Shown here piece after piece: positions 6,756 to 21,302 of a stretch of DNA of 64,000 bases. Position numbers and translations under genes: made by a program. Numbering within the stretch: the first letter of the stretch is position 1; every line of letters starts with the position of its first letter. Under the pieces are notes generated by a model, which saw nothing but the letters and a program-made list of their open reading frames with translations, was not told the origin of the DNA and made no database searches. Origin of the DNA: Actinomycetes bacterium (GTDB taxonomy: Bacteria > Actinomycetota > Actinomycetes > Propionibacteriales > Propionibacteriaceae); the NCBI GenBank assembly GCA_030426725.1, contig JAUHXZ010000005.1, forward strand, positions 1 to 64,000, written 5' to 3'.

Positions 6756-8108
6756 TCAGTCCAGGTAGTCGCGGAGGACCTGCGAGCGCGACGGGTGGCG
6801 CAGCTTCGACATGGTCTTCGATTCGATCTGGCGGATCCGCTCACGGGTGACGCCGTAGACCTTGCCGATCTCGTCGAGGGTCTTGGGCTGACCGTCGGTG
6901 AGGCCGAAGCGCATGCTGACGACGCCCGCCTCGCGCTCGCTGAGCGTGTCGAGGACGTCGTTGAGCTGCTCCTGCAGGAGGGTGAAGTTCACCGCGTCCG
7001 CCGGCACGACGGCCTCGGAGTCCTCGATGAGGTCGCCGAACTCGGAGTCCCCGTCCTCGCCGAGCGGGGTGTGCAACGAGATGGGCTCGCGACCGTACTT
7101 CTGGACCTCGACGACCTTCTCCGGCGTCATGTCCAGCTCGACGGCAAGTTCCTCGGGGGTCGGCTCGCGCCCGAGATCCTGCAGCATCTGGCGCTGGACG
7201 CGGGCCAGCTTGTTGATGACCTCCACCATGTGGACGGGGATGCGGATGGTGCGGGCCTGGTCCGCCATGGCGCGTGTGATGGCCTGCTTGATCCACCACG
7301 TCGCGTAGGTGGAGAACTTGTAGCCCTTGGTGTAGTCGAACTTCTCGACCGCGCGGATGAGGCCGAGGTTGCCCTCCTGGATGAGGTCGAGGAAGAGCAT
7401 GCCGCGGCCGGTGTAGCGCTTGGCGAGCGACACGACCAGACGCAGGTTGGCCTCGAGCAGATGGTTCTTGGCGCGCCGGCCGTCCTCCGCGATCCATTCG
7501 AAGTCCTCGAGATCCTCGGGGCTCACCGCGACGTCGACGGAGCTGAGGCGCTCCTCTGCGAACAGGCCGGCCTCGATGCGCTTGGCGAGTTCGACCTCCT
7601 CGACGGCGTTGAGCAGGGCCACCTTGCCGATCTGCTTGAGGTAGTCCTTGACCGGATCCGCCGTCGCGCCGGCCGAGACGACCTGCTGCTCCGGCTCATC
7701 GGCGTCGTCGGAGTCCGAGAGCGCGAAGCCCTCCTCTTCGACGAGCTGCTTCTCCAGCGGCGCCTCGCTCGCCTCATCGAACTGGGTGTCGTCCACCTCG
7801 TCGAGGGACCGCTTCTTCCCTCCGACGGTGAGAACCACGTCCTCGCCGTCGCGTTCGAACTTCACTTCGACCTCTCCCGTGGTCGCCTCCGCAATCGTGG
7901 GGCCGGCCCCCTTCGGCTTGGCCTTCGCACGCGTCTTCGTGGCGGTCTTGCCTGCCTTGGGAGCGGTCCTGGTGGCCGCTGCCTTGGGGGCTGCGGTCTT
8001 CGTCGCCGCGGTCTTTCGCGGGCGACTCGTTGCTGGTTGGTCGCTGCTGGTCGTTGCCGACTTCCGGGTGCGGGTGGGCTTGCCGGTTCCTTCAGCGTCC
8101 TGGGTCAC
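6756..8108 (-). CDS. sigA: Primary RNA polymerase sigma factor (RpoD/SigA/HrdB)
   Basis: [31 protein letters not shown]; full region 2-4 ([31 protein letters not shown]...[30 protein letters not shown]). Confidence 0.97.
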
Positions 8109-8299
8109 GGTGGTCCTCTCGGGGCGGCAACGATTTTGCGCATGCGCCGCCCCGGCCTAGTCAAGGGTGACGCGCTGTCCATTCTTGCACGCCGACCCCA
8201 TCCACTCAAACGATCCCCTGAGGCTCCCCTGACATGGGTCAGGGTTTCACCGGATTTCCTGGCCCTGGGGCCAGAAACACGAAATCCAGGACCGGTGTC

Positions 8300-8326
8300 G
8301 GGAACCCTGGCGACCACTCGTGCGTT
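8300..8326 (+). promoter_or_regulatory. Putative ECF (SigH/SigR/SigE-type) promoter of sigB
   Basis: GGGAAC (8300-8305), 17 nt, CGTT (8323-8326), i.e. GGGAAC-N18-GTT, 37 bp before the sigB ATG. Confidence 0.6.
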
Positions 8327-8362
8327 GAAGTGGGTGAAGGCTTTTTGGAAAGGTCAGCATTG

Positions 8363-9295
8363 ATGAATACGACTGCACGCACTCGAAGCATCGAAGGTAT
8401 CGACGGCAAGGACTCGGTGGGGCTCTACCTGGACGCGATCGCGAAGACCCCCCTGCTCAGCGCCGTGGAGGAAGTGGAGCTGGCCCGGCAGATCGAGGCG
8501 GGGATGTACGCGTCCCGCGTCCTCTCCGGTGAGGTCGACTCGAATGTCGAGGCCACCGACGACGAACTGCGCGATCTGGAGACCCTCGGCGAACGGGCGA
8601 TGAAGAGGTTCGTCCAGGCGAACCTGCGCCTCGTGGTGTCGGTGGCCCGGAAGTACGGCAGGGCGCAGATGCCCCTGCTCGATCTCGTTCAGGAGGGCAA
8701 CACGGGTCTCATCCGCGCCGTCGAGAAGTTCGACTACGCCAAGGGCTTCAAGTTCTCCACCTACGCGACGTGGTGGGTCCGGCAGGCGATCTCGCGTGGT
8801 ATCGCACAGCAGGGCCGCATCGTGCGGCTCCCCGTGCACGTCGCGGAGCAGGTCAACCAGGTGTCAGCCGTCCGCCGCAACCTGGAGCGACAGCTGGGCC
8901 GCGAGCCCGAGCTCGCGGAGATCGCCGATGAACTGGGCCTCGAGGAGCACAAGATCGTGGACCTTCTGCGCTACTCCCGCGACCACGTCTCGCTCGACGC
9001 CCCGGTCGAGGTCGACGGCGACACCGCACTCGGTGACCTGATCGCGCGCGAGACGGCGCCCGGACCCGACGAGATGGTGCTCGACGCCGAGGAGCGCGCC
9101 CGACTCGAGGGCATGCTCGCCAGGCTCGACGAGCGTTCCCAGGACGTGGTCCGCCGCCGGTACGGCCTCCTCGACGGGCGCCAGGCCAAGCTCGCCGACA
9201 TCGGCGTGCACTGGGGCATCACCGCCGAGCGTGTCCGCCAGATCGAGCGTCAGGCACTGGCCACGCTCCGCGAGACCGAGGGGATCGCCGCCTGA
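8363..9295 (+). CDS. sigB: Principal-like group 2 sigma factor SigB
   Basis: [81 protein letters not shown]. Confidence 0.93.
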   Translation: MNTTARTRSIEGIDGKDSVGLYLDAIAKTPLLSAVEEVELARQIEAGMYASRVLSGEVDSNVEATDDELRDLETLGERAMKRFVQANLRLVVSVARKYGRAQMPLLDLVQEGNTGLIRAVEKFDYAKGFKFSTYATWWVRQAISRGIAQQGRIVRLPVHVAEQVNQVSAVRRNLERQLGREPELAEIADELGLEEHKIVDLLRYSRDHVSLDAPVEVDGDTALGDLIARETAPGPDEMVLDAEERARLEGMLARLDERSQDVVRRRYGLLDGRQAKLADIGVHWGITAERVRQIERQALATLRETEGIAA

Positions 9296-10286: not shown

Positions 10287-11102
10287 ATGGCCGACGACAC
10301 CTCCGGCAGGCAGCCGGGAAGCACCGCCCAACGCACGCGGCATCTCGCGATCGCGGAACTCGTGATCAAGCGAGGTTCGGTGTCGATGGAGGACATCGCG
10401 GAGCACACCGGGGTCAGCACGATGACGGCGTATCGCGACGTGAGGGCGCTCGAGGACGCCGGCCTGCTCCAACGCCACCGCGGCCAGGTCTCGGCGGTGG
10501 CGAGCGGCCTGCAGGAGGCGAGCGCGTCGTTCCGCATCGAGCAGGAGCCCGAGAGCAAGGAGGCGATGGCCCGTGCCCTCGCGGGGCTCATCCCTCCGGG
10601 CAGTTCCGTCGCACTCGACGACTCGACCAGCGGCATCTACGTCGTGCGAGAACTCGCCAAGACACCTCCGACGACGGTGATCACCAATTCGCTTCTCGTG
10701 GCACGCGAGGCCACGCAGGCCAGCGACATCCACCTGTTCCTCACGGGAGGGTCGTACGAGGGTTGGGCGGACGCCGTGCTCGGCCCGACCGCGATCTCAA
10801 CCCTGGAGGGCCTGGACATGGACTTCTGCGTCCTCTCCGCATCGGGCATCGCCGACGGTCGTTGCTTCCACCCCTACGAGGCAGTGGTCGCGGTGAAGAA
10901 GGCCATGCTCCGCGCGGCGCGCACGCGCGTGCTGCTGCTCGACCACACCAAGCTGCGCCGCAAAGCGCTGCACGCGTTCGCGCGACTGGATGAGTTCGAC
11001 CACGTCGTCGTCGACCCCGGCGCCGGCGACGACGACCTCGCGCAGCTCGCGGCCTGGGGGGCACGTGTGGTCGTCGCGGAGGCCACGAGCCCAGAGAGTT
11101 AA
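10287..11102 (+). CDS. DeoR/GlpR family transcriptional regulator
   Basis: N-terminal HTH (SMEDIAEHTGVSTMTAYRDVRALEDAGLLQRHRGQ); C-terminal DeoRC sugar-phosphate sensor. Confidence 0.88.
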   Translation: MADDTSGRQPGSTAQRTRHLAIAELVIKRGSVSMEDIAEHTGVSTMTAYRDVRALEDAGLLQRHRGQVSAVASGLQEASASFRIEQEPESKEAMARALAGLIPPGSSVALDDSTSGIYVVRELAKTPPTTVITNSLLVAREATQASDIHLFLTGGSYEGWADAVLGPTAISTLEGLDMDFCVLSASGIADGRCFHPYEAVVAVKKAMLRAARTRVLLLDHTKLRRKALHAFARLDEFDHVVVDPGAGDDDLAQLAAWGARVVVAEATSPES

Positions 11103-11120
11103 CAAGCAACTCGATATCTC

Positions 11121-11155
11121 TCACACTGTAGGTGGTTTTTTTCACATCCTTCGTG
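11121..11155 (+). promoter_or_regulatory. Putative DeoR-type operator repeat upstream of the isomerase gene
   Basis: TCACACTGTAGGTG (11121-11134) and TCACATCCTTCGTG (11142-11155), start-to-start 21 bp. Confidence 0.35.
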
Positions 11156-11207
11156 TTAGTCTCTTCATGTACGCGGCAAGGCAGCCGCGCGATTGAAGGA
11201 GCTACAC

Positions 11208-11675
11208 ATGGGATACCGAGTGGTGCTGGCCGCGGATCAGGCCGGCGTTTCCTACAAGGACGCGATCAAGGCGAAGCTCGAGGGCGACCCTCGCGTCGAA
11301 TCGATCATCGACGTCGGCGTCGACGCGGACACCGACCCGACGGCCTACCCCCACGTCGCGGTCGCCGGTGCGCGCAAGATCGCCTCCGGCGAGGCCGACC
11401 GCGGCATCTTCGTCTGCGGCACAGGCATGGGCATGGCGATGTCGGCCAACAAGGTCCCCGGCGTCCGGGCGAGCACCGCACACGACTCGTTCTCCGTGGA
11501 GCGCCTCGTGCTGTCGAACAACGGCCAGGTCCTCTGCCTGGGTGAGCGCGTCATCGGCCGGCAGTTGGCGCTCCGGCTGGCCGACGAGTTCCTCGACTAC
11601 GTCTTCGACGACACCTCCGCCTCTGCGGCGAAGGTCGACGCCCTGTGCTCCTACGAGCCCCCCGCCGCCGGGTAG
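11208..11675 (+). CDS. RpiB/LacAB-family sugar-phosphate isomerase, resembling the tetrulose/pentose-phosphate (EryI/DerI/LerI) branch
   Basis: [49 protein letters not shown] active-site motif; SD gaaggag upstream. Confidence 0.85.
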
Positions 11676-11730
11676 CCGTCGCGCCCTCGATCAACCACCA
11701 ACTCAATCACCATTCACTAGGAGAACAACG

Positions 11731-12729
11731 GTGTTCACAGCAACCCTGGGGGTATTCCTCCTCGGCCTGGTCGTTTCGCTCGCGGGCGGATTCGTCGGCG
11801 CCGCGATCGGCGCCAACTACGCCTTCGCCGTCACCGGCATCAGCGTCTTCGTGGCCTGGGGGCTGTTCGCGGCCACGGGCTCGGGCGCAGGATTCGACTT
11901 CCTCGCCTTCGGCCCGTTCATGGGCCCGCACATCGCCTTCGCCGGCGGCGTCGCGGCGGCCGCCTACGCAGGGAGCCGGGGCCTGACCGACGGGCGCGAC
12001 GTCTCCGAGCCGCTGGCCCGCCTCGGCCGGCCGAAGATCCTCATGGTCGGCGCGCTCTTCGGTATGGCCGGCTACCTCATCCAGATCGGAATCGCCCAGC
12101 TGCCGTGGTTCGGCAGCCACACCGACTCCGTCGCCCTGACGGTCTTCATCTCGGCCGTCCTCGCCCGTCTCTTCTTCGGCGGAAGCCTGTTCCACCCCGA
12201 GAAGATGAACCAAGACGCAAAGGGATTCTGGGGACGAATCGCGCCCAACAACGAGAGCTTCTGGCTCACCTGGCAACAGCGGCCGGCACAGTACCTCGCC
12301 ATCGGCGCCTTCTTCGGCATCCTCGGCGGCGGCTCGGCCATCGCACTGTCGACCTTCTTCCCCGGCGCCGACGCCTGGGCCCACACCTTCGCCTTCGGCT
12401 TCTCCGCGATCGTCGTGCTGTTCCTCATCCTCGGCCACGAAATGCCCATCCAGCACCACGTCACGATCATCGGCGGCCTGGCAGCGGTGAAGTTCATGCC
12501 CATCCTCGCCGGCGACGGGTTCGTCTGGGGTGATTGGGGCGAGACGATCGCCTGGCTCGCGGTCGCGTCGCTGCTGATCGGAGCAGTGTTCGGCATGATC
12601 TCCGCATTCCTCGGAGAGCTCCAGTCGAACCTCTTCCACATCCGCGGCAAGACACACATCGATCCGCCTGCGATGGCCATCTGGGTATCCACCACCCTGG
12701 TACTGACCACTGCTGCTCTCTTCAGCTGA
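11731..12729 (+). CDS. Multi-pass membrane protein, putative permease (no family recognised)
   Basis: GTG start with SD aggag; about 9-10 hydrophobic helices; conserved-looking LFHPEKMNQDAKGFWGRI and GHEMPIQHHVTIIGG loops. Confidence 0.8.
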   Translation: MFTATLGVFLLGLVVSLAGGFVGAAIGANYAFAVTGISVFVAWGLFAATGSGAGFDFLAFGPFMGPHIAFAGGVAAAAYAGSRGLTDGRDVSEPLARLGRPKILMVGALFGMAGYLIQIGIAQLPWFGSHTDSVALTVFISAVLARLFFGGSLFHPEKMNQDAKGFWGRIAPNNESFWLTWQQRPAQYLAIGAFFGILGGGSAIALSTFFPGADAWAHTFAFGFSAIVVLFLILGHEMPIQHHVTIIGGLAAVKFMPILAGDGFVWGDWGETIAWLAVASLLIGAVFGMISAFLGELQSNLFHIRGKTHIDPPAMAIWVSTTLVLTTAALFS

Positions 12730-12742
12730 CCACGACGGAAGG

Positions 12743-13609
12743 ATGACGACCGTGTCGACCATCGTCTCGGCGCCCACGGAACTGAAGGGTGCCTACATCT
12801 TCGACCTCGACGGCACCATCTACCTGGGCGACCATCTTCTGCCCGGCGCGGCCCGCATGATCCGGGAGTTGCGCCGGAGGGAGATCCCGGTGCGGTTCCT
12901 GTCGAACAACCCCACGAAGGACCCGGTCCAGTACCAACAGAAGCTGGCGAAGCTGGGCCTGCCGACCTCCCTGGACGACATCGCCAACACCGTCGTCACG
13001 ACGGTGCGTTGGCTCTCCGAGCACCACCCATACGCCATCCTCTTCGTCATCGGCGAAGAACCGCTGCGGAGGGCGCTACTCGACGCCGGCTTCCGGCTCA
13101 GCGAGGACCCGGCGGAGATCGACATCGTCATCGCCTCCTACGACCGCACCTTCGACTACCGCAAGCTCCAGATCGCCTTCGACGCGATCTGGTACCACAA
13201 GCGGGCCATCCTCATCCAGACCAACCCGGACCGCTACTGCCCGTTCCCGGGCGGCCGCGGCGAGCCGGACTGCGCCGCGATCACGGCCGCCATCGAGGCC
13301 TGCACCGGCGTCGCCTGCTCCGTCAGCCTCGGCAAGCCGTCGCCGCTGATGCTGCAGGAGGCCATGTCCGGCCTGGACGTCCCCCTCCACGACGCGGTCA
13401 TGGTCGGGGACCGGCTGGGTACTGACATCCAGATGGCGCTCGACGCCGATATGCCGTCCGCCGTCGTCCTCACCGGTGAGGCCACCCCCGACGACGTGGC
13501 CTCGCTCCCCCGGGCGGCCCGCCCCACCTACGTCCTCGACCGCGTCGACCGGCTCATCCCAGCGCACATCTGGGACGAGCTCGGCTGGACCGACGACAAC
13601 GACAACTGA
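12743..13609 (+). CDS. HAD-superfamily subclass IIA phosphatase (NagD/AraL-like)
   Basis: IFDLDGTIYLGDHLLPGA motif I, FLSNNPTK motif II, GKPSPLMLQEA motif III, MVGDRLGTDIQMAL motif IV. Confidence 0.9.
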   Translation: MTTVSTIVSAPTELKGAYIFDLDGTIYLGDHLLPGAARMIRELRRREIPVRFLSNNPTKDPVQYQQKLAKLGLPTSLDDIANTVVTTVRWLSEHHPYAILFVIGEEPLRRALLDAGFRLSEDPAEIDIVIASYDRTFDYRKLQIAFDAIWYHKRAILIQTNPDRYCPFPGGRGEPDCAAITAAIEACTGVACSVSLGKPSPLMLQEAMSGLDVPLHDAVMVGDRLGTDIQMALDADMPSAVVLTGEATPDDVASLPRAARPTYVLDRVDRLIPAHIWDELGWTDDNDN

Positions 13610-13646
13610 CCACCGACGAACACTCAACGAAGAAGGTTCTTTCACC

Positions 13647-15206
13647 ATGAACATCGATGGCCCCTACCTGATGGGAATCGACTTCGGCACCGAGAGCTGC
13701 CGGGTCGCCATATTCGACCTCGCCGGACGCCCCCTCACGTTCGCCGCGACCACCTACAAGACGCGCCACCCCAGGCCGGGATGGGCCGAGCAGAGCCCCA
13801 AGGACTGGTGGGAGGCGCTGCAGGCCTCATCGCGCAAGGCCCTCGCCAACTCCGGTATTCCCGCAGCCGCCATCGCGGGCATCTCCTGCGACGCGACCAC
13901 CATGACGGTGGTACCCATGGACGCCAAGGGGGAGGCCATCCGCGACGCCATCATGTGGATGGACGTGCGCGCCACCGAGCAGGCGGCCCGCGCCGAGACG
14001 TCGGACTCCGTGGCCCGCCTCTACAACGGCGCCGGCACCGCCCCCGCCACGGCCGAGTGGTTCCCCTTCAAGGCCGCCTGGCTGCGGGAGAACGAGCCCG
14101 ACACCTACAACGCCGCGCACAAGTTGGTCGACGCCCCGGACTGGGTCACCTACATGCTGACCGGCGAGTGGAGCGTCAACATCAACTCCGCCGCGATCCG
14201 GATGTACTACAACCGCGCCAAGGGCGGCTGGCCCGTGGACTTCTACGAGCACATCGGCTGCGGCGACGTCTTCGACAAGATCCCCGAGAAGGTCCTCGAC
14301 CTCGGAACCCCCGTCGGGGGCCTGACACCGGCCGCGGCGCAGGCGCTCGGCCTCGTCCCGGGCATCCCGGTCGCGCAGGGCCCCGCCGACGCATGGGCCG
14401 GCCAGATCGGACTCGGCGTGGTCACCCCGGGCCGGATGGCTCTGATCACCGGTTCCTCGCACGTCGTCACCGGTCAGACCGACACCGAGATCCATGGCAA
14501 GGGCTTCTTCGGCGCCTACACCGACGGCGTCATCAAGGGCCAGTACACGGTCGAGGGCGGTCAGGTCTCCACCGGTTCGGTGCTCAAGTGGTTCAAGGAC
14601 AACTTCGCCCCGGACGTCGTGGCCGCCGCCGAGACGAGTGGACTCAACGCCTACGACATCCTCAACCGCAAGTCGAAGGACATTCCGATCGGTTCCGACG
14701 GCCTCATCGTCAACGAGTACTTCCAGGGCAACCGCACGCCGTACACCGACTCGAAGGCCCGGGGCATCTTCTGGGGCCTCTCGCTGCACCACACCCCGGC
14801 GCACATGTACCACGCCATCCAGGAGTCGGTCTGCTACGGCACCGCCCACAACCTGCGCGCCATGGAAAGCCAGGGATTCAAGGTCAGCGAGATCGTCGCC
14901 TGCGGCGGCGCCACCAACTCGCGCGACTGGATGCAGATGCACGCCGACGTCACCGGCGTGCCCGTCACTCTCACCGAGGTCGGTGACGCAGTCGTGCTCG
15001 GCACCTGCATGGTGGCCGCAGTCGGTGCGGGCATCTACAAGGACCTGAAGGAGGCCTCCGACCACATGGTCCACGAGGTCGACCGGCTCGAACCCGACCA
15101 GGCCAACCACGACGAGTACCAGTTCTACCTCGACCAGTACTGCGAGTCCTACCCCGCTCTGGCCGAGCTCACGCATCGGGTCGTCGACCACGAAGCGGCC
15201 AAGTAA
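13647..15206 (+). CDS. FGGY-family carbohydrate (polyol/ketose) kinase
   Basis: MGIDFGTESCRVAIFDLAGRP; DAPDWVTYMLTGEWSVN; GSSHVVTG; ACGGATNSRDWMQMHADVTGVPV. Confidence 0.9.
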   Translation: MNIDGPYLMGIDFGTESCRVAIFDLAGRPLTFAATTYKTRHPRPGWAEQSPKDWWEALQASSRKALANSGIPAAAIAGISCDATTMTVVPMDAKGEAIRDAIMWMDVRATEQAARAETSDSVARLYNGAGTAPATAEWFPFKAAWLRENEPDTYNAAHKLVDAPDWVTYMLTGEWSVNINSAAIRMYYNRAKGGWPVDFYEHIGCGDVFDKIPEKVLDLGTPVGGLTPAAAQALGLVPGIPVAQGPADAWAGQIGLGVVTPGRMALITGSSHVVTGQTDTEIHGKGFFGAYTDGVIKGQYTVEGGQVSTGSVLKWFKDNFAPDVVAAAETSGLNAYDILNRKSKDIPIGSDGLIVNEYFQGNRTPYTDSKARGIFWGLSLHHTPAHMYHAIQESVCYGTAHNLRAMESQGFKVSEIVACGGATNSRDWMQMHADVTGVPVTLTEVGDAVVLGTCMVAAVGAGIYKDLKEASDHMVHEVDRLEPDQANHDEYQFYLDQYCESYPALAELTHRVVDHEAAK

Positions 15207-15215
15207 GGAGAGACC

Positions 15216-16568
15216 ATGTCCGATCTGATCCAGGCCTCGCTCGCCGAAGCCACCGACACCAAGCGCGTCGAACTGGGCGCCGGTGCCGTCGAGAAGGTGG
15301 CCGAGGTGTTCACGTCCCTCTTCCCGGGACGCAGAGCGGTGGTCATCGGCGACGAGCGCACCATGGCCGCGGCCGGAGACGCAGTGACGGCAGCCCTCGC
15401 GGCCGGCGGGGTCGAGCTCCTCGAGCCGCACGTACTCCCCGGTGACCCGGAGCTGTACGCGAAGTACGAGAACATCGAGGCGCTCCGCGACACGCTCGCG
15501 GGCCTCGACGCGGTTGCGGTGGCCGTCGGCGCCGGCACGCTCAACGACATCGTCAAGCGGGCCAGTGGCGAACTCGAACGCGGCTACATGATCGTCGGCA
15601 CCGCGGCCTCGATGGACGGATACACCGCCTTCGGTTCCTCCATCGCGGTCGACGGGTTCAAGCAGACCCTCGGCTGCCCCGCCCCACAGGCCTGCGTGGC
15701 CGACCTCGACATCATGGCGGCCGCCCCGGGCAACATGACCGCCTCCGGCTATGGGGATCTGCTCGGAAAGGTCCCAGCCGGCGCCGACTGGATCCTCGCC
15801 GACGCGCTCGGTGTCGAACCCGTCGACGACGCGGTGTGGGCGAAGGTCCAAGGTCCCCTCGCCGACGCCGTCTCCGACCCGGAGGGGCTCGCCGCCCGTG
15901 ATGTCAGGGCCATCGGTGCCCTCGCGGAGGGGCTGGTCATGTCGGGTCTCGCCATGCAGGCGCACCAGTCCTCACGCCCCGCCTCGGGCGCCGAGCACCA
16001 GTTCAGCCATCTCTGGGAGATGGAGGGACACGGCGTCGACCAGGTCCCCAGGCTCTCGCACGGCTTCAAGGTGGCCCTCGGAACGGTCGCGGTCGCGGCG
16101 CTCTACGAGGCGCTCCTCGAGACCGACGTGGCGGCGCTCGACGTCGACGCCGCGGTCGCGGCCTGGCGGTCCCGCGAGGACCTCGAGGCACACGTGAGGC
16201 ACCTCAACCCCAATCCGCGACTGGTGGACGAGACCGTCGCGCAGACCCTCGCGAAGTGGGTCCCCGCCGAGGAGCTCCGCGCGCGCCTGGAGACCCTCAC
16301 GGGGACCTGGGCCGAGCTGGCCCCGCGGCTGCGGGAGCAGCTCCTGCCGGCGGCGGAGCTTCAGCGCAGGCTGCGCGCGGTTGGTGCCCCCGCCCACCCG
16401 TCCGACATCGACCTCGACTGGGACCGTTTCAGGGCCACGTACCTTCGTGCCCAGACAATCCGGAAGCGCTACACGGTTCTGGACGTCCTGTTCGAGGCAG
16501 GGCTCCTCGAGCCCCTCGTCGACAAGCTGTTCGCAGCCGACGGGTTCTGGGGTCTGCAGCGTCCGTGA
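15216..16568 (+). CDS. AraM/EgsA-like sn-glycerol-1-phosphate dehydrogenase family enzyme
   Basis: VAVGAGTLNDIVKRAS, IVGTAASMDGYTAFGSSIAVDGFKQTLGCPAPQACVADLD, GSGAEHQFSHLWE-like metal-site region (ASGAEHQFSHLWEM). Confidence 0.87.
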   Translation: MSDLIQASLAEATDTKRVELGAGAVEKVAEVFTSLFPGRRAVVIGDERTMAAAGDAVTAALAAGGVELLEPHVLPGDPELYAKYENIEALRDTLAGLDAVAVAVGAGTLNDIVKRASGELERGYMIVGTAASMDGYTAFGSSIAVDGFKQTLGCPAPQACVADLDIMAAAPGNMTASGYGDLLGKVPAGADWILADALGVEPVDDAVWAKVQGPLADAVSDPEGLAARDVRAIGALAEGLVMSGLAMQAHQSSRPASGAEHQFSHLWEMEGHGVDQVPRLSHGFKVALGTVAVAALYEALLETDVAALDVDAAVAAWRSREDLEAHVRHLNPNPRLVDETVAQTLAKWVPAEELRARLETLTGTWAELAPRLREQLLPAAELQRRLRAVGAPAHPSDIDLDWDRFRATYLRAQTIRKRYTVLDVLFEAGLLEPLVDKLFAADGFWGLQRP

Positions 16569-16592: not shown

Positions 16593-16636
16593 GATCCGCC
16601 GGGCGGGGTGAGCCCAGTCACCCCGCCTGGCGGATC
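16593..16636. terminator. Bidirectional hairpin overlapping the hrpA stop codon
   Basis: gatccgccgggcggggtga / tcaccccgcctggcggatc, 19-bp stem with one G.U. Confidence 0.7.
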
Positions 16637-19600
16637 GCCTGTCTGATCCGCTTCGCCGACACCGGGACCGCGGTGCGCAGCTGCTGCGCGAACAGGCTGA
16701 CCCGGAACTCCTCGATGAGGAACGCGATCTCCTCCACCGGCGCCGCGAGCGGCCCGGGTGGCTGCCGGTCCACCAGCTCGGCGTAGGCGTCCTCCACGTC
16801 ATCGACCTCCGCCTGCAGGCGCTCATCGCGCGCCGGGTTCGCCAGGGCGGCCTCGAGCCGGACCACGGTCGCCTGGGCGTAGCGCGGCAGATGCCCGAGC
16901 CACGGATCCGGGGTCGCCGAGATGAACCGGTTGAAGAACAGGTTCCCCAGCTGGGTCGTGACGTCGCGCCCGGTGGGATGGCCCGCCGGAAGACCCGCCA
17001 GGAGCAGCCGGGCACGGGTCAGGGCCGTGAGCGCCGACGCGGCACCCGCGACGACCTGACGGGTGCGGCCCGGGCATTCCTGACGCACCGCCAGCGCGAC
17101 CTTCTCGTAGGCCTCCCGGTCCCTCACCGACGCGATGGGGCCCTGCTCGGCCGCGAGCTGCTCCCCCGCTTTGAGCCAGGCATCGGCCAGCAGTTCCGGG
17201 ACCGTGTCGTAGGGCGAGTCCGCCAGCGCCAGCTTCTCGTCGCGCCCGAGATGTGAGACCACCCACTTGACCGGGTTGGGGTTGGTGAGGGTCAGCAGTC
17301 GCCGCACTCCATGGGCATGAGAGCGGTCCGCCTTGGCCTTCGAGTCGAGGACCTGCAGTCCGACGGTGGCCCCTTCGTCGACCAGCGCCGGGTAGCCGAC
17401 GACTCCCTTGGCGACCGCGGACTCCCCCGGCACCTGGCCGAATGTCCATGTGGTCTGCCCGGTGCTCGCGAGACCACCGGCGGAGCGGGTGAGCTTCGCG
17501 GCCACCTTGGGGGCGAGCTTCTCGCCCAACGCGTCGAGGTCGTCGCCCCGGGCGATCTCGCGGCCGTTGTCGATGACGACGAAGGTCGGGCGGAGGTGGC
17601 TGTCGAGGGTACCGGGGCGGAAGTCCGGTCCGCGCACGACGGTCCCGGTCAGTGCGGTGAGGGCCCTGGCGAGGGCATCGGGGAAGGCACCCTCGCCGAT
17701 GCCGCCGCGCTCGACGAGCCAACCCAGTGCGCGGTTCGCGAAGTCCGGGGCGGGGACGAAGCTCGTGCGCAGGTTCTTCGGCAGGGATCGGATGAGCCCC
17801 GTCGCCAGTTCTCCGCGCAGGCCGGGCACCTGCCAGCTGAAGGGTGCCCCGTCCAGCTGATTGAGCAGTTCGAGGCGGACCGTCACGGTCACCCCGTCGC
17901 TGCCCGCCCCCGGATCGAACACGTAGCGCACGGGCAGCTTGTGCCCGCCGACGATCCAGCGGTCGGGGAAGTCATCGGGGCGCAGCGCGGCGCTGTCACG
18001 GACCGCCTCCGAGAGCGTCAGCCGGGGCCACTCCTCCTTCGGCGTGCGGCGCAGCCACTTGTCGAAGGTCGCCCCCGAGACCACGTCGGCGGGGATGTGT
18101 GCGTCGTAGTGGGCGTACAGCTCGTCGTCGGAGATGACAAGGTCGGGCCGGCGCATCCGGTCGGTGAGCTTGGTCGCCTCCTCGAGGACCGCCCTGTCCG
18201 CGGTGACCAGCTTGTTGTGGGTCTCCCACTCCCCCTCGACCAACGCGGTCCGCAGGAAGATCTGCCGCGCCTCGGCGGGGTGGTCGGCCGCGAAGTTGGT
18301 GCGGCGTCCGGCGACGATCGGCACGCCGAAGAGGGTCAGCCGCTCGCTCGCGACCACCGTGGCGGTGCGCTGGGACCAGCGGGGCTCGGACACGGTGCGT
18401 GTGAGGACGTGGCCCGCCACCTGCTCGATCCACTCCGGCCGCACCTCGGCGACGGTGCGGGCCCACAGCTGCGACGTCTCGACCAGCTCGAACGCCACCA
18501 CCAGGGAGGGCGTGCGTCGGGCGAGAGACGATCCAGGTTGGATCGCGAACCGGGCGCCGCGCGCCCCCTGGTACATGGTGAGGGGCCGGCGCTTCCCGGG
18601 TGACGGCTTGGCCTTCTCGGTCTCGACGAGCCCCACGTTGGACAGCAGGCCCGTGAGGAGGCAGGTCAGGACGTCGGACATTGGGCCGGATCCCGACGCG
18701 TCGAGATCCAGTTCGCGGACGGCCTCCTTGAGCTGCGAGACGAGGTCCTCCCATTCACGGAACCGGACGTAGTTGAGGTACTCCGCCCGGCACATGCGCC
18801 GGAAGGCGCTGCCGGACAGTTCCCGGCGACGACGGCGCAGGTAGGTCCAGAGGTTCAGCAGGACCTCGAAGTCGCCGCCCTCGAGGGGCTCAGGGCGCTG
18901 CTCGGTCTTGCGGGTACCGGTGTGGACCGTGTGCCTGGCGGGTTCGCCGCCAGCGGGCTCCGCCTCGGGTGACGGGTCGTCCCCCGCCCAGAAGCGGCGG
19001 TGCAACTGGTCGGCCTGTGCCTGGAACTCCGCCGGCCGCTCCCGGATGTCCGGCACGGTGAGCCCCGCCACCAGCACTAGGACCGTGCCGAGGGTCTTGC
19101 GGCGGGAGCCCTCGATGAGCATCCTGCCGAGCCGCGGATCGACGGGGAGGCGGGCGAGCATGCGGCCGGTCCGGGTGAGCCGCAGGTGGTCATGCCGCTT
19201 GCGGGGGTGCAGCGCGCCGAGCTCGGTGAGCACGCGCACGCCGTCGTTGATCTGCGAGATGACCGGCGCCTCGACGAACGGGAAGCTCTCGACGTCCCCG
19301 AGCCCCGCCTGGGCCATCAGGAGGATGACGGTGGCGAGGTTCGTTCGCAGGATCTCCGGCTCCGAGAACGGAGGGCGGGACTCGAAGTCCTCCTCCGAAT
19401 AGAGGCGGATGGCGATGCCCGGGCCGAGGCGGCCGCAGCGCCCGGCGCGCTGGTTCGCCGACGCCTGCGAGACCGGTTCGATGGGCAGACGCTGCACCTT
19501 GGTGCGCGCCGAGTACCGGGAGATCCGGGCCGTGCCGGTGTCGATGACGTAGCGGATCCCGGGGACGGTGATGGACGTCTCGGCCACGTTGGTGGCGAGC

Positions 19601-20427
19601 ACCACCCGCCGCCCGGTGTGTTGCTGGAACACGCGCTGTTGGTCACCCGACGACAGCCGCGCGAACAGCGGCAGGACCTCCAGCCCGGTGCCCAGCCTGC
19701 TGATGGCGTCCGCGGCGTCGCGGATCTCGCGCTCACCGCTGAGAAACACGAGGATGTCCCCCGCGGCGGACTCGGTGACGATCTCCTCCACCGCCCGGGC
19801 GATGCCGTCGATCTCGTCCTGGTCCTCATCAAGCGGGCAGTAGCGCGTCTCGACCGGGTAGGTGCGGCCCGATACCTCGACGACGGGTGCGTCGCCGAAG
19901 TGGGCCGAGAAGCGCGCCGTGTCGATGGTGGCCGAGGTGACGATGACGCGCAGTTCCGGGCGCTTCGGGAGCAGTTGCTTGAGGTAGCCGAGGAGGAAGT
20001 CGATATTGAGGCTGCGTTCGTGCGCCTCGTCGATGATGATCGTGTCGTAGCGGCGCAGCATCCGGTCGTGGGTGAGCTCGGACAGCAGGATGCCATCGGT
20101 CATCACCTTGATGCGCGTCGCGCCGGTGACCTTCCGCGTGAAGCGCACCTGGTATCCGACGAGGGCACCCAGGTCGGTGCCGCACTCCGCGGCGATCCGC
20201 TGGGCCACGGTGCGTGCCGCGATCCGACGGGGCTGGGTGTGGGCGATGTGTTCCCGGCCCGCGAGCAGGCAGATCTTCGGCAGCTGGGTCGTCTTCCCGG
20301 AGCCGGTCTCGCCCGCGACGACGACCACCTGGTGGTCGCGGATCAGCTCGGCGATGTGGTCCGCCTCCGCCGCGATCGGCAGCGAGGGATCGACCTCGAC
20401 GGTGTACGCCGCGGGGGCCTCCGTCAT
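16618..20427 (-). CDS. hrpA: ATP-dependent RNA helicase HrpA (DEAH box)
   Basis: VAGETGSGKTTQLPK, DEAHERSLNIDFLLGYLK, SATID, QRAGRCGRLGPG; ATG at 20427 overlaps the upstream Usp stop. Confidence 0.95.
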   Translation of the reverse strand: MTEAPAAYTVEVDPSLPIAAEADHIAELIRDHQVVVVAGETGSGKTTQLPKICLLAGREHIAHTQPRRIAARTVAQRIAAECGTDLGALVGYQVRFTRKVTGATRIKVMTDGILLSELTHDRMLRRYDTIIIDEAHERSLNIDFLLGYLKQLLPKRPELRVIVTSATIDTARFSAHFGDAPVVEVSGRTYPVETRYCPLDEDQDEIDGIARAVEEIVTESAAGDILVFLSGEREIRDAADAISRLGTGLEVLPLFARLSSGDQQRVFQQHTGRRVVLATNVAETSITVPGIRYVIDTGTARISRYSARTKVQRLPIEPVSQASANQRAGRCGRLGPGIAIRLYSEEDFESRPPFSEPEILRTNLATVILLMAQAGLGDVESFPFVEAPVISQINDGVRVLTELGALHPRKRHDHLRLTRTGRMLARLPVDPRLGRMLIEGSRRKTLGTVLVLVAGLTVPDIRERPAEFQAQADQLHRRFWAGDDPSPEAEPAGGEPARHTVHTGTRKTEQRPEPLEGGDFEVLLNLWTYLRRRRRELSGSAFRRMCRAEYLNYVRFREWEDLVSQLKEAVRELDLDASGSGPMSDVLTCLLTGLLSNVGLVETEKAKPSPGKRRPLTMYQGARGARFAIQPGSSLARRTPSLVVAFELVETSQLWARTVAEVRPEWIEQVAGHVLTRTVSEPRWSQRTATVVASERLTLFGVPIVAGRRTNFAADHPAEARQIFLRTALVEGEWETHNKLVTADRAVLEEATKLTDRMRRPDLVISDDELYAHYDAHIPADVVSGATFDKWLRRTPKEEWPRLTLSEAVRDSAALRPDDFPDRWIVGGHKLPVRYVFDPGAGSDGVTVTVRLELLNQLDGAPFSWQVPGLRGELATGLIRSLPKNLRTSFVPAPDFANRALGWLVERGGIGEGAFPDALARALTALTGTVVRGPDFRPGTLDSHLRPTFVVIDNGREIARGDDLDALGEKLAPKVAAKLTRSAGGLASTGQTTWTFGQVPGESAVAKGVVGYPALVDEGATVGLQVLDSKAKADRSHAHGVRRLLTLTNPNPVKWVVSHLGRDEKLALADSPYDTVPELLADAWLKAGEQLAAEQGPIASVRDREAYEKVALAVRQECPGRTRQVVAGAASALTALTRARLLLAGLPAGHPTGRDVTTQLGNLFFNRFISATPDPWLGHLPRYAQATVVRLEAALANPARDERLQAEVDDVEDAYAELVDRQPPGPLAAPVEEIAFLIEEFRVSLFAQQLRTAVPVSAKRIRQAIRQAG

Positions 20428-21302
20428 CGAGTGATATAGAGCGGGCACTCGGCGTGCGCCATGAGCCCGCGCAGCAGCCCGCCGAGGCTGAAGCCCGGAA
20501 GATGCGAGTCGCCCACGCCGAGGACCAGAAGGTCATAGGTCGAGGTCCGGCTGGCCAGCTCGTTGATGGGGCTGTCGGCCCTGACGACGACCTCGTACTG
20601 GACCTGCGGATGCTTCTTGGCGAGGCTCTCGGCGAGGGCCTCGATGCCTCCCTTGGCGAAGCGGACCTGCTCGTCCAGTTGGTTGGGGGTGAGCTTCTTC
20701 GCGAAGATCCCGACGGGCGGCTGGATGGCGTGAACTACCTCGAGGCGGGCCCCGAGGCGCTCGGCCTGGGTGAAACCGGCGTCGAGGACCTGCTCCGAGC
20801 CCGGTTCGGCGGTGAGTCCGACCCCGATGAGGCCGAGCCGGCCGATCGGCTCGGGGTGGGCCGCGGCGGAGATCACGACGACGGGACACGAGGCATTGGC
20901 CACGACGGCCACCGACGTCGAGCCGACGAACATGCGCTCAAGCCCGGATGCCGCGCGGCGACCGACGATGACGAGATCAGCCACTTCGCTGAGCCGCGCC
21001 ATCACGCCGCCCGGCGATCCCATGACGACCTCGGTCTTGATGCGGTCCTCGGCCAGACCCATCTCGAGGGCGACGTCCTTGGCCTGCTCGTTGGCCGTCA
21101 CACCGGCGGCCTGAAGGACCTCGGGGTCGTAGACGACCCCCCAGGCGCCGGCCATCAGCGTGTCATCGACCGCGTTGACGAGGAGCAGCTCACCGCCGTA
21201 TGCCAGAACCGTGCCGGTTCCGAACCGCACGGCACGCAGGCCGTCGTCGCTGCCGTCGACACCGACCACCACCAGAGGCTTGTTGCGCTCTTGCTCGGTC
21301 AT
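20424..21302 (-). CDS. Universal stress protein, tandem Usp domains
   Basis: VVVGVDGSDDGLRAVRFG; VGSTSVAVVANASCPVVVI; second domain ending LGGLLRGLMAHAECPLYITR. Confidence 0.9.
   Translation of the reverse strand: MTEQERNKPLVVVGVDGSDDGLRAVRFGTGTVLAYGGELLLVNAVDDTLMAGAWGVVYDPEVLQAAGVTANEQAKDVALEMGLAEDRIKTEVVMGSPGGVMARLSEVADLVIVGRRAASGLERMFVGSTSVAVVANASCPVVVISAAAHPEPIGRLGLIGVGLTAEPGSEQVLDAGFTQAERLGARLEVVHAIQPPVGIFAKKLTPNQLDEQVRFAKGGIEALAESLAKKHPQVQYEVVVRADSPINELASRTSTYDLLVLGVGDSHLPGFSLGGLLRGLMAHAECPLYITR

Follow-up and report, generated by a model that had tools for sequence, protein, structure and literature searches.

The window, a stretch of 64,000 nucleotides of propionibacterial DNA, contains six consecutive plus-strand genes encoding a DeoR-family regulator, an RpiB-type isomerase, an orphan permease, a HAD-IIA phosphatase, an FGGY kinase, and a dehydrogenase of the AraM/glycerol-1-phosphate dehydrogenase (G1PDH) family (Table 1). 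An earlier note made from the sequence had named this set, and Pfam and NCBIfam profile searches applying the cut-offs of the models bore out both the open reading frames and the families, the permease being without one. Successive gaps between the genes are 105, 55, 13, 37, and 9 bp; the spacing of 9–55 bp given previously thus holds for the five structural genes but not for the interval from DeoR to RpiB. Starts are preceded by Shine-Dalgarno-like sequences (e.g., GAAGGAGCTACACATG and GTAAGGAGAGACCATG), as had been noted. Minus-strand genes lie on both sides, a thioesterase-like gene to the left and a helicase-like gene (16618–20448) to the right, each named from its translation, so that the operon forms a bounded unit.

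Table 1. Features of the operon and their positions in the window.
Feature	Position	Strand	Assignment or proposed role
DeoR-family regulator	10287..11102	+	HTH_DeoR + DeoRC sensor (Pfam)
Candidate operator TTCACA-N6-GTGTTA, 5' of RpiB gene	11141..11158	+	
RpiB-type isomerase, EryI/Coccidioides kind	11208..11675	+	Proposed D-erythrulose-4-phosphate isomerase
Orphan permease, GTG start	11731..12729	+	Proposed erythritol importer
HAD-IIA phosphatase, AraL/PGP-like	12743..13609	+	Putative repair phosphatase acting on by-product sugar phosphates
FGGY kinase, own subfamily (FGGY1)	13647..15206	+	Proposed erythritol kinase
AraM/G1PDH-family dehydrogenase	15216..16568	+	Proposed polyol-phosphate dehydrogenase

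The operon is conserved across Propionibacteriaceae, with examples in Arachnia, Propionibacterium, Cutibacterium, a probable Acidipropionibacterium, and other genera. The kinase has a clear orthologue in 35 genomes; AraM lies beside it in 29 of these and the permease in 28, and chance clustering can be ruled out because identical gene order recurs across many genera. Carriers include Propionibacterium freudenreichii (assigned through the identity of its MutB with 1req) and Cutibacterium acnes (assigned through bL25 with 8crx), where the kinase gene carries a stop codon. Many relatives possess a second, AraB-like kinase, and some loci add a DAK-type kinase; in P. freudenreichii a second triosephosphate isomerase (TIM) gene lies beside DeoR.

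The regulator (Pfam DeoRC, E = 1e-38; HTH_DeoR, 9e-12), which holds the same place in relatives, is probably the local repressor of the operon. In 19 of 27 operons the motif CACA-N5-8-TGTTA precedes the RpiB gene, against 0.06 expected under a first-order Markov model, these sequences being related and not independent. The form found in the window, TTCACA-N6-GTGTTA, is the only zero-mismatch match in its own genome, where the search yielded no second convincing operator site and control motifs gave similar results at one to two mismatches. DeoR would repress through this putative CACA-N-TGTTA operator, and the operon would be induced by its substrate.

The isomerase matches LacAB_rpiB (E = 1e-41; 142.3 vs. 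a cut-off of 24.7) and passes TIGR02133 (175.7 vs. 168.2). It does not reach NF051858, the D-erythrulose-4-phosphate isomerase equivalog (134.8 vs. 240 bits), a cut-off that the Brucella protein 5ifz passes (243.6 vs. 240). The histidine responsible for ring opening (99 in E. coli numbering) is replaced by serine in 29 of 29 operon copies; in the window protein this is S103, together with R99 and the catalytic C70, which is invariant across operon copies. Brucella 5ifz carries the same serine and has its key residues in common with the operon isomerase. Canonical RpiBs keep the histidine, among them a second RpiB in the window's genome, and a housekeeping role for the operon copy was accordingly rejected. 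In fungi, the EryI homologue EYI1 of Yarrowia is needed for erythritol assimilation. The RpiB of Coccidioides immitis (3qd5), a fungal protein whose substrate is unproven, is approximately 61% identical to the window isomerase and shows the same change of histidine to serine; its crystal structure paper suggests shorter-chain substrates for the histidine-less type (PMC3212906). By its residues the operon isomerase belongs to this short-chain EryI/Coccidioides type, and D-erythrulose-4-phosphate is proposed as its substrate.

The permease had been called an orphan, a description that stands: it matches no family in Pfam or NCBIfam, and its AlphaFold2 model (pLDDT 94, pTM 0.91), which is all-helical with about 10 long helices, has no fold match at E ≤ 0.001 in PDB or BFVD. 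Alignment of its halves with hhalign (E = 0.0023; score 25.8 vs. at most 18.2 for 20 shuffles) is suggestive of an internal duplication at an offset of 177 residues. The HAD-IIA protein exceeds the cut-off of TIGR01460 (101.6 vs. 100.15) and has Hydrolase_6/Hydrolase_like domains (Pfam).

The kinase clearly exceeds the Pfam cut-offs for FGGY_N (138.1 vs. 28.8) and FGGY_C (142.5 vs. 27) and lies below every NCBIfam equivalog cut-off (AraB, XylB, GlpK, and others). FGGY1 is a conserved set of seq­uences (n = 7) with 68–83% identity, and Propionibacterium goes unmentioned in the FGGY family paper. The closest equivalog is ribulokinase, but the score is far under its cut-off (284.1 vs. 428), which speaks against an accessory part in L-arabinose or arabitol metabolism of the kind that the P. 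freudenreichii 'araBML' annotation and B. subtilis AraL/AraM would imply. That reading draws on the pairing of AraL with AraM, the AraB-like kinase of relatives, and the AraD in the operon of one genome (G021). However, L-arabinose isomerase (AraA) was not found in 8 of the 14 operon carriers searched, C. acnes included, and the AraA of the window's genome is encoded on a separate contig (C69). L-arabinose was therefore rejected as the primary role, and we consider even an accessory part very improbable.

The dehydrogenase matches Fe-ADH_2 (E = 4e-29), its best PDB matches are glycerol-1-phosphate dehydrogenases, and D181, H261, and H282, which we take to be its metal ligands, are invariant in 14 sequences. 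It does not reach NF002022, the AraM/EgsA G1P dehydrogenase equivalog (147.8 vs. 413). The substrate of AraM's family is sn-glycerol 1-phosphate, and a derivation by hand from known stereochemistry gives D-erythritol 4-phosphate the same configuration next to its phosphate. Family membership would also suit glycerol 1-phosphate metabolism, in which AraM makes G1P from DHAP, the HAD enzyme dephosphorylates it, and the kinase acts on glycerol; glpABC and a GpsA-like gene adjoin the operon in Micropruina, and glpABC adjoins it in a further locus (L014). An EryI-type isomerase would be superfluous in such a pathway, however, and it is most unlikely to be the role of the operon. A glycerol kinase role was rejected, the genome having a separate GlpK above its cut-off (L001).

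Taken with the comparative evidence, these assignments favor the order of steps proposed in the earlier note, from import through a kinase, an AraM-type polyol-phosphate dehydrogenase, and an EryI-like isomerase to the pentose-phosphate pathway, and the operon probably serves the import and fermentation of erythritol by way of erythrose 4-phosphate. The permease, one of several possible importers, would bring in erythritol, which the FGGY kinase would phosphorylate, probably to D-erythritol 4-phosphate. Oxidation of the polyol phosphate by the AraM-family enzyme with NAD(P) would follow, in the simplest case at the carbon adjoining the phosphate and so yielding L-erythrulose 1-phosphate, and an isomerase would then shift the ketone to give D-erythrulose 4-phosphate. 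From this the RpiB-type enzyme would make D-erythrose 4-phosphate, which transketolase would pass into central metabolism, while the HAD-IIA enzyme would remove by-product sugar phosphates. The loci of relatives gain transketolase, a DAK-type kinase, and a second TIM, which counts in favor of an erythrose 4-phosphate route, as does the loss of the ring-opening histidine from the isomerase. Several observations count against the erythritol reading: Micropruina genomes have DeoR-RpiB-permease-HAD-AraM with the kinase not adjoining; two genomes of one genus (G021 and G043) have the operon without AraM, in the former with the AraD epimerase; and the AraM of the window and that of Cutibacterium/Propionibacterium belong to different clades.

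Also counting against it, there is just a single TIM in the window's genome, and no dedicated erythrulose-1-phosphate isomerase of the LerI type is known there. In P. freudenreichii the TIM-like enzyme of the locus is a candidate for the ketone shift; in the window's genome the single housekeeping TIM may perform it, or AraM may oxidize the other carbon, in which case the step would not be needed. L-erythrulose 1-phosphate is the intermediate that the title of a cited paper names for erythritol metabolism in P. pentosaceum, and its cleavage to DHAP and formaldehyde was suggested for that organism (Wawszkiewicz, 1968, as cited in PMC10733421). A class I aldolase could carry this out with the first steps unchanged, and the single TIM would fit; at the second AraM locus in the window's genome (L021), a class I aldolase-like gene adjoins HAD2. 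Since that gene is in no other locus compared, and the EryI-type isomerase of the operon and the transketolase of relatives point to erythrose 4-phosphate, such cleavage appears improbable.

A serious rival, or a second substrate, is ribitol (adonitol), which the kinase would convert to D-ribitol 5-phosphate, to be oxidized by AraM to D-ribulose 5-phosphate and isomerized by RpiB to ribose 5-phosphate. Next to its phosphate, D-ribitol 5-phosphate is configured like D-erythritol 4-phosphate; ribitol is accepted by E. coli ribulokinase, and transketolase is compatible with this route too. Adonitol as well as erythritol is used by P. freudenreichii and A. jensenii, and because both are used equally universally the P. 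freudenreichii phenotype does not separate them. However, the isomerase lacks the histidine for opening a furanose ring, a form open to C5 phosphates but not to tetrulose phosphates, and a canonical RpiB is encoded elsewhere in the window's genome. The AraB2-AraM2 pairs examined outside the operon (L021, L083, L088, and L092) also have no RpiB or permease adjoining, as expected if a pentitol arm needs no special isomerase. On balance ribitol is an unlikely, though credible, substrate of the operon; a role on ribitol is possible for the AraB-like second kinase of many relatives, also where the first kinase acts on erythritol.

The erythritol reading bears on a gap in P. freudenreichii, all 21 strains of which were reported to ferment erythritol and adonitol with genes not known, both pathways being described as missing and a core-genome 'araBML' locus being filed under L-arabinose (PMC4437456). 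This locus, with araB, araB, araM, and araL at about the same chromosome position, is almost certainly the orthologous operon; it was assigned to L-arabinose, and the part of the account considered does not mention RpiB, the permease, DeoR, TIM2, or DAK (PMC4437456). Consequently, the operon is not wholly undescribed, as had been supposed, although literature searched on AraM with FGGY, or on erythritol with G1P dehydrogenase, contained no description of such a system.

Nor is it a standard ara or ery locus, as was rightly held. With the ery system of Brucella and other Rhizobiales (EryABCD, EryHI) it shares a kinase first, an EryI-like RpiB, a DeoR-type regulator (EryR), and erythrose 4-phosphate as the end product, but the six genes include neither the GlpD-type FAD dehydrogenase EryB nor the epimerase/racemase EryC, and the kinase subfamily and transporter are different. 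Instead there is an AraM-family dehydrogenase suited to the opposite phosphate enantiomer, which would make the EryC step unnecessary. B. subtilis araLM likewise combines HAD-IIA (AraL) and G1PDH (AraM) in one operon; here, however, there is no AraA, AraD, or ABC transporter, and the kinase and isomerase differ. The tetritol pathways of Mycobacterium smegmatis (EltD, LerK, LerI, and DerI) share the proposed sequence from L-erythrulose 1-phosphate through D-erythrulose 4-phosphate to erythrose 4-phosphate, and the DAK-type kinase and second TIM of some relatives of the present operon are a further likeness; there the tetritol is oxidized and then phosphorylated, whereas here a kinase and a polyol-phosphate dehydrogenase would act first. 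LerI and DerI convert L-erythrulose 1-phosphate to erythrose 4-phosphate (PMC10733421).

It is possible, at somewhat less than an even chance, that the operon constitutes the missing propionibacterial erythritol route, combining a kinase forming D-erythritol 4-phosphate and a G1PDH-family enzyme serving as D-erythritol-4-phosphate dehydrogenase, with L-erythrulose 1-phosphate as its direct product, dispensing with the Brucella epimerase, and using a permease that is the first of a new transporter family with a new fold. In dairy propionibacteria the fermentation of erythritol is a trait of the species, in C. acnes it is a biotyping trait, and enzymological work on it in propionibacteria goes back to the 1960s. 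The operon offers a named gene set, ready for testing, for a route whose genes eluded the genome study of P. freudenreichii, together with a candidate polyol permease that has no recognized family or PDB fold relative. If the erythritol reading is true, the arabinose annotation in P. freudenreichii would be corrected and a well-known dehydrogenase family would gain a new enzyme activity, with a bearing on the microbial fate of a widely eaten sweetener.

Open reading frames bear out the six genes from which the earlier note had built a polyol or rare-sugar operon, and the tight spacing described for its structural genes holds, with intergenic gaps of 55, 13, 37, and 9 bp; DeoR lies upstream of the RpiB-type gene across 105 bp. 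The families named there are upheld by Pfam/NCBIfam for five genes, the permease having zero matches in both. The genome carrying the window (contig C106) is 2.92 Mb and belongs to an Arachnia-like member of the Propionibacteriaceae, whose genus also includes [Pseudopropionibacterium] massiliense (G071) and Arachnia (G140). Just upstream, translations indicate two sigma-70-like factor genes lying head to head (window 6756-8108, minus strand; 8234-9295, plus strand).

Features of the operon in the window
Feature	Position	Strand	Basis
DeoR	10287-11102	+	ORF, Pfam
Candidate operator CACA-N5-8-TGTTA, upstream of RpiB	11143-11158		Shared motif
RpiB-type isomerase P0002	11208-11675	+	ORF, Pfam and NCBIfam
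Permease	11731-12729	+	ORF; no Pfam/NCBIfam match
HAD-IIA phosphatase	12743-13609	+	ORF, Pfam and NCBIfam
FGGY kinase	13647-15206	+	ORF, Pfam
AraM-like dehydrogenase P0006	15216-16568	+	ORF, Pfam

The isomerase P0002 falls in TIGR02133 (175.7 against a cut-off of 168.2), with Coccidioides RpiB (3qd5) a close relative. Where RpiB has its ring-opening His, 29 of 29 operon copies have Ser, with R99 conserved; canonical C. thermocellum RpiB and the second RpiB of the window's genome keep the His. Ser and R99 recur in Brucella 5ifz, which over 141 aligned residues exceeds the D-erythrulose-4-phosphate isomerase cut-off; Ser also occupies this position in a divergent RpiB beside a related operon (L071/L049). 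Because a furanose ring is out of reach for tetrulose phosphates, loss of this His, as read from sequence, favors a C4 over a C5 substrate for the operon isomerase. The crystal paper on Coccidioides RpiB noted the Ser replacement and suggested shorter substrates (PMC3212906), and erythritol assimilation in Yarrowia requires an EryI homolog (PMC5992420).

The dehydrogenase P0006 matches Fe-ADH_2, its PDB matches are sn-glycerol 1-phosphate (G1P) dehydrogenases, and D181, H261, and H282 are invariant across 14 sequences. In the AraM tree, the window type stands apart from the Cutibacterium/Propionibacterium type, indicating that distinct AraM lineages occupy one slot beside an orthologous kinase. 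G1P is 2S and 2-C-methyl-D-erythritol 4-phosphate is 2R next to the phosphate; from these established compound names, and allowing for a swap in CIP priority, D-erythritol 4-phosphate carries the G1P configuration next to phosphate. D-erythritol 4-phosphate is the product of a Propionibacterium kinase classed as EC 2.7.1.27, and its oxidation next to the phosphate would yield L-erythrulose 1-phosphate. The same product is listed for EC 2.7.1.27 (PMC3245297), and L-erythrulose 1-phosphate is named in the title of a 1968 paper on P. pentosaceum. LerI and DerI convert L-erythrulose 1-phosphate to erythrose 4-phosphate, EryC being required only when starting from D-erythrulose 1-phosphate (PMC10733421). 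Searches of the window's genome found no dedicated gene for a LerI-type step.

The HAD-IIA protein scores above the TIGR01460 cut-off. By analogy with the related mammalian PGP, a repair role is suggested for the operon phosphatase, which would clear, for example, 4-phosphoerythronate arising from erythrose 4-phosphate. In 19 of 27 operons, which are related to one another, the candidate operator motif precedes RpiB, against an expectation of 0.06; TTCACA-N6-GTGTTA matches the window's genome exactly at a single place. A Pfam search of 35 permease members gave nothing beyond weak noise. The AlphaFold2 model of the permease (pLDDT 94, pTM 0.91) had zero matches in PDB and BFVD at E<=0.001, and among the matches listed the best PDB E-value was 0.097 and TM-scores were <=0.31. 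A weak alignment of its two halves, offset by 177, outscores 20 shuffles (E=0.0023); neighborhood and topology point to transport.

Gene order is common to the named loci of Arachnia, P. massiliense, and other Propionibacteriaceae. Counts across genomes, here and above, are inflated by kinship. Of 198 family genomes sampled, 83 have AraM relatives, 51 have the permease, and 41 have a kinase orthologue (E<=1e-150). In the 35 genomes with an unsplit kinase match below 1e-250, AraM lies <=4 kb from the kinase in 29, the permease <=5 kb in 28, and both in 26. The permease was found in just 4 of 395 genomes sampled class-wide, two of them Propionibacteriaceae. Micropruina lacks the FGGY kinase at the operon locus; there (L015, L017, L019), DeoR-RpiB-permease-HAD-AraM adjoins glpABC and a GpsA-like gene, RpiB not being seen in L019. 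AraM is absent from the locus in G021 and G043; the G021 operon (L143, 2190-11091) includes an AraD epimerase, AraM being missing between two kinases and transketolase.

Other AraM and polyol loci were also observed. On contig C105 of the window's genome (L021, 8086-13132), a second AraM (54% identical) accompanies an AraB-like ribulokinase, and the opposite strand carries another HAD-IIA (74%) along with a class I fructose-bisphosphate aldolase-like gene, possibly a pentitol arm or an erythrulose-1-phosphate aldolase. A third AraM-family gene of this genome (L158, contig C32) falls in a distinct clade, whose members elsewhere, C. acnes among them, occupy separate loci. In Propionicicella superfundia (G025, L160, 6874-13003), an AraM relative, a GlpK-like kinase, a RuBisCO-like protein (nearest MtnW), a divergent second TIM, and a class II aldolase cluster together in what resembles a further, undescribed route for a polyol or sugar phosphate. 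L161 (G028) and L164 (G064) carry a PRK04302-type TIM-like gene, a SorC-type regulator, and a GpsA-like dehydrogenase, joined in L161 by a galactitol-type PTS EIIC; this set may be a second polyol pathway whose polyol-phosphate dehydrogenase is of the GpsA family.

Two named species carry the operon. Methylmalonyl-CoA mutase of G068 aligns identically with PDB 1req, and bL25 of G084 is identical to PDB 8crx, structures from P. freudenreichii and Cutibacterium acnes, respectively; it follows that genus g14 is Cutibacterium, and kinship suggests that g4 is Acidipropionibacterium. The operon is present in all of these, mostly with an additional AraB-like kinase that exceeds the ribulokinase cut-off wherever scanned, and a transketolase gene follows AraM in g14 and g4. 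Immediately past DeoR, the P. freudenreichii genome has genes for a TIM and a DAK-type kinase; DAK relatives are also close to DeoR in G028, G003, G064, and G054. In the C. acnes genome G084 (L058, 8500-10050), an in-frame stop interrupts the operon FGGY kinase, which in G119 is split into two overlapping matches; erythritol use is variable in C. acnes (PMC2924382). Strains of A. jensenii are erythritol- and adonitol-positive (PMC6920887). Erythritol and adonitol were fermented by 21 of 21 P. freudenreichii strains, and neither pathway could be reconstructed, while a conserved locus at ~2.414 Mb (two araB, araM, araL) was filed under L-arabinose (PMC4437456). The G068 operon lies at ~2.39-2.40 Mb and comprises the same two araB, araM, and araL together with RpiB, a permease, DeoR, and a second TIM. 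Set beside the C4 substrate favored for the isomerase, ribitol (adonitol), which these strains also ferment, is a less likely substrate of the operon than erythritol but a serious alternative. In genomes with the AraB-like kinase, one operon may handle both polyols.
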